Origin: Archangium sp.
GTDB lineage: Bacteria > Myxococcota > Myxococcia > Myxococcales > Myxococcaceae
Direction: 5' to 3'
DNA length: 64,000 nt
Assembly: GCA_030681645.1 (NCBI GenBank)
Contig: JAUXRX010000049.1
Coordinates: 496,001 to 560,000 of the forward strand
Position 1 is the first letter of the stretch. Every line of letters starts with the position of its first letter. Positions 28,008 to 34,538 of this stretch are shown piece by piece. Both the position numbers and the translations under genes were made by a program. The notes beneath the pieces were generated by a model. The model was not told where the DNA came from. It saw nothing but the letters and a program-made list of their open reading frames with translations, and did not search any database.

Positions 28008-28559
28008 ATGGGAGTACGGGGGTTTCTCGCAGCGGCGTTGCTGACCGCTTCGACAGCCAGCGCGCAGGTCGACGTGAAGGCAGCCCTGCCGGTGCTGCTC
28101 AAGGTCCTGACCTACGACGTCAACTTCGACGCGCGGGGCGCGGGCCCCTTCGTGCTGCTCGTGGTGTCCGATCCCGGCCAGTCCGCCGATCGCAGCGCGC
28201 TCATCGGCAGCCTCAAGGACTCCAGCGTCACCGAGGTGAAGAAGCGCCCGCTCAAGTACATCGCCGTCGACTTCCGCGACGAAGCGCAGCTGCAGGGTGA
28301 GATCGACAAGCACAAGGCCTCGGCGCTGCTCGTGGTGCCCGGCACCCCGACCGCGACCGTGAAGGCGCTCTGGGAAGTCGCGCAGGACAACCAGCTCTAC
28401 GCGCTCGCCCTCGACGCCGAGACCGTGCAGTCCTTCTTCCCGGTCGGCGTCACCATGGTCGGCGACAAGCCGCAGATCATCATCAACGAGAAGTCGTCGA
28501 AGGCCGTGGGCGCGCGCTTCGAGACGGTGGTCCTGCGCATGGCCAGGGTCATCCAGTGA
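28008..28559 (+). CDS. YfiR-family (DUF4154-like) periplasmic protein
   Basis: 183 aa. Signal peptide MGVRGFLAAALLTASTASA with probable cleavage before QVDVK. The mature protein contains YDVNFDARGAGPFVLLVVSD and ends GVTMVGDKPQIIINEKSS then ARFETVVLRMARVI, matching the YfiR/HmsC-like family. In the known YfiBNR system YfiR represses a diguanylate cyclase; no cyclase is seen next to this gene. The ATG is at 28008. The 3' end overlaps the retron reverse transcriptase by 11 bp in convergent orientation. Confidence 0.7.
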   Translation: MGVRGFLAAALLTASTASAQVDVKAALPVLLKVLTYDVNFDARGAGPFVLLVVSDPGQSADRSALIGSLKDSSVTEVKKRPLKYIAVDFRDEAQLQGEIDKHKASALLVVPGTPTATVKALWEVAQDNQLYALALDAETVQSFFPVGVTMVGDKPQIIINEKSSKAVGARFETVVLRMARVIQ

Positions 28560-30624
28560 CCTCGTCGAGCGCGGCCTTGAGCTTCTGGCCCTTCGCGCGG
28601 TCCACCATCATCACGTACGCGATCTTCCCCTCGAGCACGCGGCGGTAGTCGGGCACCTTCTCGCGGTTCTGCGCCTCGAGCCCCGTCTTCTTCGCCTGGT
28701 GGAGGATCGCCCGCAGCCGCTTGAGCTCGTCGCGCGGAACGCCCGGCTTCACGTTCACCACGATGCCCGTCACGTCCTGCCGGCCACCCTGCCCCTGCGC
28801 CCGGCCCTTCTTCGGGTTGAGCGCGAAGCCCTCGTCTTCCACCACGTGGCGAATGCTGGCGTGCACGAAGCCGAGGTCGCCGCGGGTGAAGGTCTTCTTC
28901 GAGAAGGACAGGTCGTCGGCGTAGCGCGTGTAGACCCAGCCCTTCTTGCCCAGGCGGCCGCGAAGGCGGCGGTCCAGCTTGCGGCTGATCGCGTTGGCGA
29001 TCGCCGGGCTGGTCGGCGCGCCCTGCGGCAGGCAGCGCTCACCGACGGCCACCCACCAGTCCGCGCCGTCGAACGTCACCTTGCGGCGCGGCGCCTCGGT
29101 GCAGAGCAGGCCCAGCACGGTCGCCGCCGCGGGTGAGTAGCCCAACGACTGAAAGAGCCCGCGCACCCGGCGGAACGAGACGGTGGGGAAGAAGTCCTTC
29201 AGGTCGACGTTGAGCACCACGCCCTGCCCCACGTGCGGCGTGGCGTTGGTGACGGTGCTGCGGCCCTTCACGAAGCCGTGCGCCTCGGGCTCGAGCGGGA
29301 TCTTCGCCAGCACCTCGTCGAGCACCTTGCGCTGGGTGGTCTTGAGCAGCACGTGCGGCGCCGAGAGCAGCCGCTTGCCACCGCTGCGCTTGGGGATCTC
29401 GAAGTAGAGGTAGTGCGTCTTGCGCGTGGCCTCGGCGTGGAAGCACAGCCAGCGCAGCTGCTTGATGGTGAGCCCCAGCCCCTTCGCCACGTCGGCCGGC
29501 GTGCCCCACACCGGGAGCCCCAGCTTCTGCAGCGCCTCGACGTTCGCCCGTCGATCGGTGAGCCCACGCGAGACGCCGCGGCCCAGGAAGATGATGTCTT
29601 CCGCGCGACGCTTCGCCACCCCTTCCACGCGCGCGGCTTCCTTCGCCTCGGACGCCTTCTTGCGCTCCTCGCGCTTCTTCAGCTTCGCCGCGCGGAGCTG
29701 CTCGATCGCCGCGTCGGCCGTCTTGAACGCGGCAGCGGTGGCGAGCCGGTCGGCGTCGTGGAAGCGCAGCCAGAGATCACCCACGCGGTGGATCTCGGCG
29801 ATCTGCACCTCGGTCAGCAGCCCGCGCAGGAGGAGCCCGCGATCGATCAGCGCCGTCCGCTCGTCGCTCTGCGGGGGGATGGTGTCCACCCGGCCGATCC
29901 ACGCGGTGCGGTACGGGTTGATCTTCACCGCGCGCTTGCGCAGCTCGTCGGCGGACAGGCCGAGGATCTCCGGGTTCGCGTCGTAGCTGGTGTTGACGAC
30001 GGCGGGCGCAGGAGGTGGCGCCGCGACCCGCACCGGCGGCGGCGGTCGTTGCTGCTGTTGTTGCTGTTGCTGGCGAGCCGGGGGCGGCGGAACGATGCCG
30101 TGCCGCCAGGTGCCCGAGACCAGCGAGTACCCGAGCCCGGGGAGCAGCTCGTTGGCGATGCGCCCGACCAGCGTCACCACCGTCATGAAGTCGGGGTTGG
30201 TGGTGCGGGTGATCTCGGCGGCGATCTCCATGGTGTTGAACGGCTCGCGCTTCGCCGCCCGGGCGTGAATCGCCGCGCGCACCCGCTGCTCGGTCGAGAG
30301 GCCGCCACCGACCGCGGCCACCACGTTCGCCGGCGGCACCTGCAGCGGAGGCGAGCTCACCGGCCCGAAGGTGCCCCCGCTGTCCTGTGCGTAGCCCAGC
30401 GGCGTGAGCAGCCCGTCCTTGAACAGGCGGTGCACGGTGTCGCTGGCGAGGCGCAGATCGTCGGCGGTGCGGTGGGGATCGTTCGCCGTCACCTCATTGG
30501 CGATGTCGAGCGCGGTGAAGCGCTCCTTGCGCGCCACCCGGCCCAGCATCGCGTCGCGCACGAGGTTCTGCGCCGCGGTGCCGCCGCCGCCGAACATGCG
30601 CCTGACTTGATCCCAGAAAGACAA
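28549..30624 (-). CDS. Retron reverse transcriptase with long N-terminal extension
   Basis: 691 aa from a TTG at 30624; GGGAGGG is 6 nt upstream (a TTG at 30630 would abut it, and ATG 30598 is another candidate). The C-terminal ~320 residues are a retron RT: LNVDLKDFFPT, NATPH as the retron NAxxH motif (about residue 460), QGAPTSPAIANAISR, YADD catalytic motif (about 568-571) and VTG in the thumb (about 618-620). Residues 22-80 and 114-170 are two similar copies of a helical, probably winged-helix, module (VRDAMLGRVARKERFT, VRAAIHARAAKREPFN). A polyglutamine tract of eight follows, then a charged helix (KLKKREERKKASEAKE). It makes msDNA from the adjacent RNA and stays bound to it. The gene follows the ncRNA by 18 bp. 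Confidence 0.95.
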   Translation of the reverse strand: MSFWDQVRRMFGGGGTAAQNLVRDAMLGRVARKERFTALDIANEVTANDPHRTADDLRLASDTVHRLFKDGLLTPLGYAQDSGGTFGPVSSPPLQVPPANVVAAVGGGLSTEQRVRAAIHARAAKREPFNTMEIAAEITRTTNPDFMTVVTLVGRIANELLPGLGYSLVSGTWRHGIVPPPPARQQQQQQQQRPPPPVRVAAPPPAPAVVNTSYDANPEILGLSADELRKRAVKINPYRTAWIGRVDTIPPQSDERTALIDRGLLLRGLLTEVQIAEIHRVGDLWLRFHDADRLATAAAFKTADAAIEQLRAAKLKKREERKKASEAKEAARVEGVAKRRAEDIIFLGRGVSRGLTDRRANVEALQKLGLPVWGTPADVAKGLGLTIKQLRWLCFHAEATRKTHYLYFEIPKRSGGKRLLSAPHVLLKTTQRKVLDEVLAKIPLEPEAHGFVKGRSTVTNATPHVGQGVVLNVDLKDFFPTVSFRRVRGLFQSLGYSPAAATVLGLLCTEAPRRKVTFDGADWWVAVGERCLPQGAPTSPAIANAISRKLDRRLRGRLGKKGWVYTRYADDLSFSKKTFTRGDLGFVHASIRHVVEDEGFALNPKKGRAQGQGGRQDVTGIVVNVKPGVPRDELKRLRAILHQAKKTGLEAQNREKVPDYRRVLEGKIAYVMMVDRAKGQKLKAALDEVTG

Positions 30625-30641
30625 CGGCAACCCTCCCAGCG

Positions 30642-30888
30642 CTTCACGAACTCAGGGAGGACCCGACCACCGACTTCTACCTCTGGACCACGTCCGATAA
30701 CCAAGGGGCCGGCGTCCACCACGGGATGAAAACCACGTTGCTTTGGTCGTCGCGAAGCGACTCCCGTGGTGGACGCCGGCCCCAAAAAGAACATCGGGCG
30801 TGGGGTCGAATGGATGAGACGGCGCCACCCTGGCGGAACACCAGGGCATGACGGGCTCGGTGGTCAGGTCCTCCCTGCGATCGTGAAG
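30642..30888 (-). ncRNA. Retron msr-msd non-coding RNA
   Basis: Transcribed on the minus strand with its 5' end near 30888. The a1 region (30857-30877) pairs with a2 (30653-30673) over all 21 positions with one U-G pair. Beyond a 3x3 internal loop the pairing resumes for 8 bp (30881-30888 with 30642-30649). Just after a1 is the AGC, with the probable 2'-branching G at 30856. An msr hairpin, CCCTGG with CCAGGG, lies at 30828-30846. The msd is dominated by a 22-bp perfect stem (30705-30726 with 30762-30783) and a 35-nt loop carrying its own 5-bp hairpin (GTCGC-GAA-GCGAC, 30749-30761). It starts 10 bp after the SWIM gene. Confidence 0.93.
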
Positions 30889-30898
30889 TGAAAAGACA

Positions 30899-32602
30899 TC
30901 AGTGCAACAGCTCCTTCTTGGCAGAGTCAGGCGACAGAATCTCTGCGTTCTCGAACAGCTTCAAGGCGATGAGGTGGCGGCACGGCCCCTTCTTGAGCCG
31001 GAAGTGGCGGAAGTAATCGCAGCCGCAGGTGGCCTTGGAATAGCCGCCGTCAGAGTCGAACAGCGCCTCGCAGCGGGTGCCCACCCGGGAACCCTCGGTG
31101 CGCACCTGGGCGATGAGCAGCTGGCGCAGGTTGGGCAACACCTCGCGCCGATCGAGCGACACCCCGCCCCGCCGGTACGCGTCGATGCCGAAGGTGAGTT
31201 CGGGCGACGGCGGCCCCAGCACGCTCTCCGAGAGCGCGACCGGCATCACCTCGCGGAAGCGGTACTGCTTGGTGGCGAAGTCGAAGATCACCTGGCCCTG
31301 CTGCGCGAGGTGGTGCAGCGAGCCGATCAGCGACGGCCGCGCTATCTCCACCAGGCGCGAGAGTTCGTCGAAGCCCGCCACGTGCTGCTTCTTCAAGTGC
31401 TCGAGGATCCGCGCGCTCGCCCGCAGGTCGGCCACGAAGGCGCCCGAGAGCAGCTCGAGGTTGCTGCCCGAGGTCCAGTCGTTGGTGGTCCAGCCCGAGA
31501 GCCCGAGCACGAAGCGCATGTCGCCCAGGTGCGCGGTCCAGATCGACGGCAGGCCTGAGCCGAGCAGCTGCACGGTGACGCGCTCGGCGATGGGCAGCAG
31601 GCGCGCCAGCACGCCCAGGCGGCGGCGGCCCCAGACCTTGATCGTCTCGGGCTTCTCGCCCACGAACGCCTTGCCGTGGCTCTCGACCTTCACGCCCCAC
31701 GGCTGCAGCACCATCACCGGCGCTTTGCCGGGGGTGAGCTGGAACTCGATCGACCGCGGGCCCACCTTCTCGCGGTGGCGCTTGAGGTGGGCGAGCACGG
31801 AATAGACGGCGTCGATGCTCAGCTCGACCTCGCGCGACGGCAGCGCCATCGCGGCGGAGAGCTGGCCGAAGCCCTTGAGCCAGCTGGGCGGGAGATCGAT
31901 CTTCTCTTCGCGGTACCCGCCCGCGCTCTCGACCTTCACCTCGAAGCCGGTGGGGTCCACCAGCAGGCGCGTCTCGCGGTAGGTGCGCAGCGTCTGGAAG
32001 TGCTCGTAGAGCGCGATGGAGTAGTCGACGTTGGTGGTGCCCAGCCCCGAGCTCGCGCTGCCCTCGAACGCGTCGCGATCGACGAAGAGGCAGCCATACG
32101 ACGACTCGTCCTTGGCGAAGCACTCGAAGAAAACGGTGTCGGGCGCGACGGTGACCACCGGGTCGCAGGGCACCAGCGCGCGGAACATCTCGGGGTCGGA
32201 CCTGGCCAGCTCGTTGGCCCACTGGCGCCGCGCGTTCCAGTAGAGCGAGTGCATCTTGCGGAAGTCGTGTTCGAGGTTCGGCGGCGGCGCTTCCCCCTTG
32301 ATCCGCTCGATCTCCTTGCGCTTCTCGTGGTCGACGATCGAGGCGCGGAGTTCGTTCTCCTGCTTCGTCTGCTCGGCCTTCCACGCGTCGTAGAGCGACT
32401 TGTCGCGCCTCTTGAAGCGGAGGTCGCCGACCACCACGTCGTGCAGCGCGCTCATCGCCTCGCGGAAGCGCAGCGGGTTCTTCATGCGCTGGTCGAAGAA
32501 GACCTTGGGGCGCGCGAGGTTCGGCTGAAACGAGAGCGCCGACGAGCCCGAGGCCGACTCGATCAGGCCCGAGGAGCCGAGGTATTTCAGATCGAGATTC
32601 AA
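30899..32602 (-). CDS. Winged-helix SWIM-domain protein, probable retron accessory protein
   Basis: 567 aa, TTG start; GGGAGAGGG and GGTGGAG lie just upstream and are partly formed by a palindromic repeat. The C-terminus is a SWIM zinc-binding domain with C526, C528, C541 and H543 (CxC-x12-CxH). Residues about 405-460 are a winged helix (ILEHLKKQHVAGFDELSRL then GQVIFDFATKQYRF). The N-terminal 400 residues are unassigned, beta-rich. The SWIM plus winged-helix combination, the same orientation and the 10-bp gap to the retron RNA identify it as the likely WHSWIM partner of an ARM/WHSWIM/RT retron. Its biochemical action is not known. Confidence 0.85.
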   Translation of the reverse strand: MNLDLKYLGSSGLIESASGSSALSFQPNLARPKVFFDQRMKNPLRFREAMSALHDVVVGDLRFKRRDKSLYDAWKAEQTKQENELRASIVDHEKRKEIERIKGEAPPPNLEHDFRKMHSLYWNARRQWANELARSDPEMFRALVPCDPVVTVAPDTVFFECFAKDESSYGCLFVDRDAFEGSASSGLGTTNVDYSIALYEHFQTLRTYRETRLLVDPTGFEVKVESAGGYREEKIDLPPSWLKGFGQLSAAMALPSREVELSIDAVYSVLAHLKRHREKVGPRSIEFQLTPGKAPVMVLQPWGVKVESHGKAFVGEKPETIKVWGRRRLGVLARLLPIAERVTVQLLGSGLPSIWTAHLGDMRFVLGLSGWTTNDWTSGSNLELLSGAFVADLRASARILEHLKKQHVAGFDELSRLVEIARPSLIGSLHHLAQQGQVIFDFATKQYRFREVMPVALSESVLGPPSPELTFGIDAYRRGGVSLDRREVLPNLRQLLIAQVRTEGSRVGTRCEALFDSDGGYSKATCGCDYFRHFRLKKGPCRHLIALKLFENAEILSPDSAKKELLH

Positions 32603-32606
32603 GCTC

Positions 32607-32677
32607 CACCCTCTCCCTGCGAAGCGGGGAGACGGCGAACTCGCGCCTCGAGGGGAAGGTGGCCGGGGTGAGGGGAC
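32607..32677. repeat. REP-like element, family A
   Basis: CCACCCTCTCCCTGCGAAGCGGGGAG at the left, and GGCCGGGGTGAGGGGA at the right, with a CGAACTCGCGCCTCGAGGG spacer. It lies between the HEAT and SWIM genes; on the minus strand its GGGAGAGGG is next to the SWIM start and may act as a ribosome-binding site. Confidence 0.75.
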
Positions 32678-32681
32678 CAGC

Positions 32682-34538
32682 TCATTCCGTCACCTCGTCA
32701 CCAACGAACCTGAGCTCAGGCAGCTCACGAGAGAGCAGCTCCTTGAGCGTCGAGTCACGAGTCGCCGCCCGCACCACCTGGGCCAGCGCCGCTCTCCGCT
32801 CCGCATGCCGCACGCTGCGCAGCGTGTACCCCAGCAGCTTCACCAGCCCCTGCGCCTCCTCGGGCTTCTGCACCATGCGATCCGCCACCTGCCGCGCCGC
32901 GTGCCGCTTCGCCCGGCTGCCGCGGTGCACGGACAACAACGTCGTCGCCCACACCCGCTGCAGGGTGTCGGGAGAGAACTTCGCCTCGCGCGCCTCGAAG
33001 TCGACCAGGAACCGATCGCGCACGTCGGCGTACGGCGTCTCGCTCATCGCCAGCCACAGCTCGACGGCCTCGCCGAAGCGGGAATCGCGCTGCATCAGCT
33101 CCATCGCGGTCTTGCGCACGTCGACGTGCCGCGCATCGAGCAGCTCTCGCACCAGCAGCGGCCGCGCCGCGTCTTCGAGAATGAGCTGCTGCGCCACCCA
33201 CTCCACGCCCTCCTGGCGCACGTGCGGCGCCTCGGCGTTGCGCAGCTTGAGCAGCGTCTCCAGCTCCTTCGCGGTGCGCACCGGCCGGGCCTTCGCCCAG
33301 GACAGCCCCAGCTCGGCCACCGGAGCGGCCCGCGCGCAGGCCAGCTGCACGCACTGCTCGAGCGACAGCCGCGTGGGCGCGACGTGCACCTTCACCGCCG
33401 CGCACACCTGCGTCAGCACCTCGGGGTTGGTGATCGACAACAGCTCGAGCCAGTCCGAGATGGGCAGCGCCTCGAGGCCCTTCGCCGTGCTCAGCACCTT
33501 CGCCCCGAGCCGCTGCACCTCTTCGTGCGGGCTCTTGAGCAACGGAATGAGCCGGGCCGCGGGCAACCCGTCGAGCTGCACCGCGTGGTGCGTCTCCAGC
33601 GCCCACACCGCGAAGCGCCGCACCGGCCTGGCCTGCGCCGTGAGCGCGAGGGTGAGCAGCACCTCGAGGCAGTCCTTCCACGCGTCGGGCGCGAAGGGCG
33701 TGAACTGGAGATCCTTGAGCGCCTTGCCCGCGGCCACCTTGATGCCCAGGGGCGCGCGGTCGAGCACGTCGGTGCCGGCGTAGAGCGCGTGCACCAGGAA
33801 CCACGCGTCGAGCAGCGCCTCGGTGCTGGCGAGGTGATCGTCGCGGAAGCGCGCGAGCACGGGGAGCACTGCCTGCCGGTAATCGAACGCCGACTGCTTC
33901 GAGAGCTTGCGGAAGAAGCGCCACGTGCGCCGCTGCAGGTAGCGGCGGGTGGAGAAGGTGAAGCGCAGCGGGTCGGCCCGCTCTTCGCCGCCTCCGTGGT
34001 TGGTGGTTTCCCAGCGGTTGGTGCTCGGGTTGCGGCCCCAGCGGCGGTGCGGGCCGACCAGCGGAATGTACGGGCGGCGCATGCGCGTGGTCACGCCGCT
34101 GAGCGGGTTCGTGTAGGTGCGCCGGGCGCCCTTCCACCGGGGGAGCCGCGGCACCAGGTCTGCCGGCTCGCGCAGCACCTGCTCGGTCACGCCGCGCCGC
34201 GCCTGCCAGTCCCACCGGCTCTGGGTGACCAGGCGGCGGCGCACCAGGCGATCGAAGGCCACCGCGAAGTGACCCATCAACTCGACGTCGTTCGCCTTCT
34301 CGGCGGCCTTGAAGAGCGTCTTGACGAAGACGCGGTGCCCGGGGCGATCGCAGCCGTCGTCGATGTACCCGATCAGCACCTGGCGGGCGAAGGGGCGGCT
34401 CTCCGTGAAGAGCCGCTGGGCGAGGCTGGCCAGCTTCTTCTGGGTGCGCGCCCCGAGCAGCTCGGCCAACGCGCGCACGTCGCCCGCGTCGAGCAATTCG
34501 TCGAGCAGCAGGCTGGAGCTGGCGGTTCCTCCCGACAT
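32682..34538 (-). CDS. HEAT/ARM-repeat protein, probable retron accessory protein
   Basis: 618 aa. The region from about residue 220 to the end is a series of helical repeats with the periodic hydrophobic pattern of HEAT/ARM solenoids, e.g. LLTLALTAQARPVRRFAVWA, LIPLLKSPHEEVQRLGAKVL and VRELLDARHVDVRKTAMELM. Residues about 140-185 are an insert rich in Arg, Pro and Asn (RTYTNPLSGVTTRMRRPYIP). No catalytic motif is evident. It is the first gene of a same-strand HEAT, SWIM, retron RNA, RT set and divergent from nuoA with 64 bp between starts. It may sense or hold the msDNA-RT complex, but this is inference from context. Confidence 0.8.
   Translation of the reverse strand: MSGGTASSSLLLDELLDAGDVRALAELLGARTQKKLASLAQRLFTESRPFARQVLIGYIDDGCDRPGHRVFVKTLFKAAEKANDVELMGHFAVAFDRLVRRRLVTQSRWDWQARRGVTEQVLREPADLVPRLPRWKGARRTYTNPLSGVTTRMRRPYIPLVGPHRRWGRNPSTNRWETTNHGGGEERADPLRFTFSTRRYLQRRTWRFFRKLSKQSAFDYRQAVLPVLARFRDDHLASTEALLDAWFLVHALYAGTDVLDRAPLGIKVAAGKALKDLQFTPFAPDAWKDCLEVLLTLALTAQARPVRRFAVWALETHHAVQLDGLPAARLIPLLKSPHEEVQRLGAKVLSTAKGLEALPISDWLELLSITNPEVLTQVCAAVKVHVAPTRLSLEQCVQLACARAAPVAELGLSWAKARPVRTAKELETLLKLRNAEAPHVRQEGVEWVAQQLILEDAARPLLVRELLDARHVDVRKTAMELMQRDSRFGEAVELWLAMSETPYADVRDRFLVDFEAREAKFSPDTLQRVWATTLLSVHRGSRAKRHAARQVADRMVQKPEEAQGLVKLLGYTLRSVRHAERRAALAQVVRAATRDSTLKELLSRELPELRFVGDEVTE

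Follow-up and report, generated by a model that had tools for sequence, protein, structure and literature searches.

A type XIII retron of Archangium sp. with a predicted sliding-clamp-like partner protein and a fast-changing, self-complementary msd stem

Which class of retron is encoded in this stretch of Archangium DNA, and how could it act, given that no toxic enzyme domain was recognised in its HEAT or SWIM protein? The window, i.e., the whole stretch of 64,000 nucleotides that was analysed, corresponds to positions 496001-560000 of contig C62 (JAUXRX010000049.1) in the Archangium sp. assembly GCA_030681645.1, which comprises 10.24 Mb in 66 contigs with a completeness of 98.9% and a contamination of 6.66%; one further genome of this genus, used for comparison, is a MAG that carries the label Archangium sp. 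The retron spans positions 28549-34538 of the window, and its order of transcription is HEAT/ARM protein, SWIM protein, RNA and reverse transcriptase (RT). A reading made from the letters of the window alone (the sequence-only reading) had described a four-part retron on one strand, and all the parts lie on the minus strand where that reading had placed them:

32682-34538, minus strand: HEAT/ARM protein, 618 aa, a short form without a WGR domain (PADLOC HEAT-ARM_XIII, E = 2.9e-165; alignment with 29 relatives)
30899-32602, minus strand: SWIM protein, 567 aa (PADLOC SWIM_XIII, E = 3e-169; Pfam SWIM, 1.4e-4)
about 30642-30888, minus strand: msr-msd RNA (z = −11.1; compensatory change in 33 of 46 consensus pairs)
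28549-30624, minus strand: retron RT, about 691 aa (PADLOC RT_XIII, E = 1.7e-151; retron Ec86 RT, E = 5e-43)

The sequence-only reading had assigned the pairing of a HEAT/ARM protein with a winged-helix SWIM protein to type XIII and had proposed a comparison with PADLOC profiles. In this comparison, RT_XIII, SWIM_XIII and HEAT-ARM_XIII were all matched, each at E ≤ 1e-150; type XIII is the top match for all three proteins, and RT_XIII ranks first among 58 profiles with 503 bits compared to 364 for the runner-up. The class assignment is thereby upheld, and it is nearly certain that the locus is an intact type XIII retron, belonging to a known class and not to a new one; the class is reportedly defined in the retron classification of Mestre et al. 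from 2020. The locus shares with type XIII retrons all three protein families, the order HEAT-SWIM-RNA-RT and the single strand, and as a member of the class it is ordinary. It differs in the two winged-helix domains at the N-terminus of its RT and in its short HEAT protein without a WGR domain; this domain is N-terminal in all three of the tested HEAT relatives of about 1000 aa from the other clade. The Pfam HEAT_2 match in the HEAT/ARM protein is weak and below the cut-off. What is new here is the predicted clamp fold of the SWIM protein, the two extra winged helices of the RT, and the fast-changing, self-paired msd stem with its tandem copies. The clamp-like fold (for type XIII retrons as for the SWIM protein itself), the extra winged helices and tandem RNAs with unrelated self-paired stems are undescribed in the openly licensed papers searched, which is weak evidence of novelty.

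The RT consists of the following domains:

30361-30576, minus strand: RT winged-helix domain 1 (AlphaFold2; weak single-domain winged-helix matches)
30100-30330, minus strand: RT winged-helix domain 2 (AlphaFold2; weak single-domain winged-helix matches)
28804-29397, minus strand: RVT_1 polymerase domain (Pfam PF00078, E = 1.1e-18)

The start codon is TTG, at the place where the sister genome has GTG, and the N-terminus is composed, in order, of a conserved FW..VK..FGG-like stretch, the two predicted winged helices and a Q/P-rich linker. The winged-helix pair is absent from the sequence-only reading; the motifs named there, NAxxH (as NATPH), YADD and VTG, are all read in the translation. As that reading had expected, the RT groups with retron RTs, which are its nearest solved relatives with Ec86 first, and it falls in the type XIII clade of the tree. 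Among the 55 RTs in this tree, the window-type group comprises 28 rows (SH-aLRT 99) from Myxococcota, Planctomycetota, Verrucomicrobiota and one Acidobacteriota MAG, and the WGR-HEAT clade (19 rows, SH-aLRT 100) is separate from it, as are the Mx162-like and Mx65-like groups. The number of N-terminal winged helices in the relatives is 0, 1 or 2 and changed several times on the tree, where the counts exclude the first HMM, which drifted into the RT core in round 2.

Between the SWIM and RT genes, the msr-msd RNA is composed of a long a1/a2 stem, a GAGC branch context, an msr hairpin and an msd stem in which each arm has 24 paired bases:

30859-30888, minus strand: a1, pairing with a2 (fold, covariation)
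30856, minus strand: candidate branch G, the third letter of GAGC at 30858-30855 (GAG invariant in 23 RNAs; Retron-Mxa2 context)
30827-30847, minus strand: msr hairpin, 9 bp, with a UUC loop (fold, covariation)
30793-30803, minus strand: 5' side of the inner stem, pairing with 30688-30698 (fold, covariation)
30762-30785, minus strand: arm 1 of the msd stem, hypervariable (arm comparison)
30703-30726, minus strand: arm 2 of the msd stem, complementary to arm 1 (arm comparison)
30688-30698, minus strand: 3' side of the inner stem (fold, covariation)
30642-30671, minus strand: a2, pairing with a1 (fold, covariation)

The minimum free energy of the RNA is −162.3 kcal/mol, compared with −103.7 ± 5.3 kcal/mol for dinucleotide shuffles, and none of the 200 shuffles is as good. 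In the alignment of 23 RNAs, the 46 consensus pairs fall in the a1/a2 stem, the msr hairpin, the inner stem and the long msd stem, and 33 of them show at least one change on both sides that keeps the pair, although these counts are not independent events because near relatives are included among the 23 rows. The folding check that the sequence-only reading had suggested and the compensatory pairs support the a1/a2 ends and the msd stem that it had claimed, and the branch G stays a candidate. All 23 RNAs have GAG in the branch context, and GAGC is the branch context of Retron-Mxa2, as CAGC is of Mxa1 (PMC6868368). A 74-nt msr profile was found in nearly all the window-type loci with enough sequence, normally between SWIM and RT; the Rfam search returned tRNAs only and no retron RNA family. 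The branched msDNA would be about 125-135 nt in length by our estimate; the earlier figure of about 120 nt was a guess.

The modules of the SWIM protein are as follows:

31499-32500, minus strand: predicted sliding-clamp-like region, residues ~35-58 and 149-368, containing an inserted coiled coil (AlphaFold2; Foldseek; boundaries read from the secondary structure of the model)
31256-31426, minus strand: winged helix, residues ~393-449 (secondary structure of the AlphaFold2 model)
30956-31036, minus strand: SWIM zinc finger, CxC...CxH, residues 523-549 (Pfam PF04434, match of 1.4e-4 above its cut-off; Cys and His invariant)

The AlphaFold2 model, based on a 50-sequence alignment, has a moderate pLDDT of 75.7 and a pTM of 0.70. 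Foldseek gave 440 matches against the PDB at E ≤ 1e-3, and the best 50 of the 440 are all sliding clamps (PCNA, 9-1-1); the best clamp match has E = 5.7e-8, and the TM-score to the target is about 0.47-0.64 among the matches listed, for a model which is itself a prediction. A library of viral structures independently returned mainly PCNA, beta clamps and herpesvirus processivity factors. Residues 257-368 are predicted to form a strand, a helix, strands, a helix and three strands, an order which we take to be that of one PCNA domain, and residues 35-58 and 149-215, with the coiled coil between them, would be a second, less regular copy. These predictions make it quite probable that the protein has a PCNA-like sliding-clamp fold, followed by the winged-helix and SWIM modules. 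The Pfam clamp families gave no match in 50 members of the SWIM family, and the hhalign comparison with one archaeal PCNA, for which an approximate sequence was used, was not significant and placed a short piece (residues 336-367) on the C-terminal strands of PCNA. Because no match to a clamp was found at the sequence level, the clamp is a claim of fold only. A sequence search for solved relatives of the SWIM protein, the HEAT protein and the RT N-terminus gave none that was significant. The sliding clamps (PCNA, 9-1-1, beta clamp) are ring proteins that surround DNA while it is replicated, and what residues ~35-368 share with them is the predicted fold; they differ in having no sequence similarity and in being fused to a winged helix and a SWIM finger. 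The predicted fold in a conserved partner is a directly testable handle, through structure, DNA loading and contact with the replication machinery, and it is a first clue to the working of a little-studied retron class.

The first retrons to be discovered were those of myxobacterial msDNA in 1984, and no role for them is settled in the openly licensed papers searched. Five retron-like RTs were observed in the source assembly, on C62, C17, C48, C13 and C66, to be read together with its contamination of 6.66%. Three of them belong to type XIII sets, the one on C13 was assigned as 'RT_other/outgroup', and that on C66 is nearest to the type XI RT-Protease. From the branch contexts CAGC and GAGC, the size and the host, we infer that the C17 and C48 loci are Mx162-like (Retron-Mxa1) and Mx65-like (Retron-Mxa2), respectively. 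Judged from these loci, the Myxococcus xanthus retrons share with the window retron a homologous RT, a homologous SWIM protein (about 28-34% identity) and an msr hairpin ahead of a long msd hairpin, whereas they fall in separate RT clades and have another RNA sequence, and the HEAT protein of the Mx162-like locus greatly exceeds that of the window retron in length (PDLC02919).

The arms of the msd stem were compared among 25 distinct RNAs, all of which have a recognisable 3' anchor. The local pairing score of the two arms within a locus has a mean of 20.9 and a minimum of 14, compared with a mean of 6.5 and a 95th percentile of 10 between loci. Between the RNA of the window and that of the genus relative, the flanks are 94% and the loop 91% alike, and the arms, aligned with gaps, 59%. 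In the Mx162-like RNAs of the family, the base and loop are nearly constant, and the arms vary with pairing kept; within Myxococcus, the arms change stepwise with compensation. The long msd stem changes fast yet stays self-complementary, and arms of this kind reveal where in the msDNA the pressure acts.

We explain the locus as an msDNA-latched anti-phage complex acting on DNA, with a probability of roughly 0.6 for this explanation as a whole. Following retron biochemistry, the 2'-OH of G30856 in the folded transcript is the most likely primer for the RT, which would copy the msd into the branched msDNA with its long hairpin retained. Strict co-occurrence and the solved retrons make it most likely that the RT and the msDNA assemble with the HEAT/ARM and SWIM proteins into a single complex. 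In this complex, SWIM probably provides a clamp-like DNA-binding surface and winged-helix and zinc-finger contacts, with HEAT as the scaffold, and the winged-helix pair of the RT may add contacts to DNA or protein. In Ec86, Ec83 and Eco8, the effector is held by msDNA and released by phage factors (PMC13158370). These solved complexes have a homologous RT and the same RNA architecture; they differ in that their effectors are enzymes or nucleases, none of which is recognised in the window retron. By analogy with them, the msDNA would keep the complex inactive until HEAT-SWIM is released by a phage protein that acts on the msDNA through binding, unwinding, cleavage or modification, and the freed HEAT-SWIM might then bind DNA or forks, halt replication and abort the infection. 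The anti-phage function, by extension from other retron types, is fairly probable. That HEAT-SWIM acts on DNA or replication and not through an enzymatic activity is put forward tentatively, as a hypothesis drawn because no enzyme domain is recognised. The explanation is favoured by the type XIII profiles, the retron RT, the RNA pairs, the cross-phylum linkage, the clamp fold found in two libraries and the winged helices. Against it stand the absence of a recognised toxic enzyme and a clamp that lacks sequence support, with a pLDDT of 75.7 and TM-scores of about 0.5-0.6. It is rather doubtful, though conceivable, that type XIII retrons in general, probably including relatives of the first retron found, use a clamp-like protein on a HEAT scaffold to act on DNA or forks, with fast-diversified msDNA stems as a changeable bait and no conventional toxic enzyme.

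The spread and inheritance of the set bear on whether its role is instead a cellular one. As for the conservation of the partner genes beside the RT, on which the sequence-only reading had made its case depend, the set is well conserved: of 36 window-type loci, 35 have HEAT and 32 the RT, and most absences are near contig ends. The HEAT-SWIM-RT linkage extends across Myxococcota, Planctomycetota and Verrucomicrobiota with different flanks; the genes that flank the retron in the window (nuoA, nuoB, a thioesterase, a lytic transglycosylase and mutY) are, among the 36 loci, shared with the genus relative only, and in the sister genome the retron is at the same place, beside nuoA. The set therefore moves or persists as one block, and in this genus it was inherited without a change of place. 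In some genera of myxobacteria, SWIM_XIII is nearly universal, and the type XIII set is nearly absent from viral contigs, where one fragment was found. Near-universality and in-place inheritance fit a cellular role equally, and the main rival is a vertically kept myxobacterial DNA-maintenance module, in which a clamp-like SWIM protein, a HEAT scaffold and msDNA would act at host forks or breaks, phage defence being secondary or absent. Its predicted clamp-like, winged-helix and zinc-finger folds and the vertical inheritance of myxobacterial retrons (PMC6868368) agree with such a module. However, the set is patchy across phyla with differing flanks and reaches up to four copies per genome, and the fast turnover of the msd arms is more easily explained by conflict. 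To our knowledge, moreover, the retrons of other types tested so far are all defensive. We consider the maintenance module unlikely.

In the Mx162-like type XIII retron on C17 (G000:C17; L038 8130-8760, minus strand), two tandem msr-msd copies lie ahead of one RT; their flanks are near-identical, and their arms are unrelated and each perfectly self-complementary. G098, G100 and G154 also have tandem copies, as probably does the genus relative, whose assembly is interrupted within the repeat. In Limnoglobus roseus (L083 9519-9844), two tandem window-type copies with different stems sit between HEAT and SWIM, not between SWIM and RT. Tandem RNAs with different stems and one RT suggest that the cell may display several msDNAs at once. 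The replacement of arms between unchanged flanks and loop, the unrelated arms of tandem copies and a 34-nt exact genomic match of one C17 arm would fit arms that are exchangeable cassettes acquired from other DNA, which would give the msDNA a variable target or bait and a memory-like role. This is very improbable, since the Myxococcus arms change stepwise with compensation, phage matches are not above chance, and no genomic source was found for the window arm or, within its genome, for the C17 copy-2 arm. Three arms had no exact match in viral contigs, and neither had a control-like fourth pattern; BLAST against phages stayed at chance level, and the window arm gave 2-mismatch genomic matches only, at the level of the control. 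The 34-nt copy (G000:C33:46239-46272; L178 8240-8273) lies at the 3' end of a gene for an unrelated hydrolase. It is more likely derived from msDNA than the reverse because it includes the conserved stem base GCTCTCC, and it probably represents a piece of msDNA in the chromosome. In Nannocystis, partial copies of msDNA have been reported (Lampson & Rice 1997; Lampson 2002; both cited in PMC6868368). A search for more such fragments in the family found none outside retron loci among the 8 candidates scored per genome. A 32-nt exact match to the C17 msd loop lies in another genome of the genus (L194 1444-1475; G068:C626:23943-23974), with no retron recognised nearby.

A selfish or decaying retroelement with no host function, as might be supposed from the fact that no function for the type XIII class was found in the openly licensed papers searched, is scarcely credible given the retained open frames and catalytic motifs, the RNA pairs maintained by compensation and the partner genes linked across phyla.

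In Minicystis rosea (L069 12300-20700), an insertion splits the operon between the RNA and the RT, and at L074 2050-11600 the operon is split between SWIM and the RNA; the insertions in these two loci are 8-9.5 kb. At L054 7754-9222, an Mx65-like RT is split over two reading frames; a damaged copy or an error in the sequence may be the cause.
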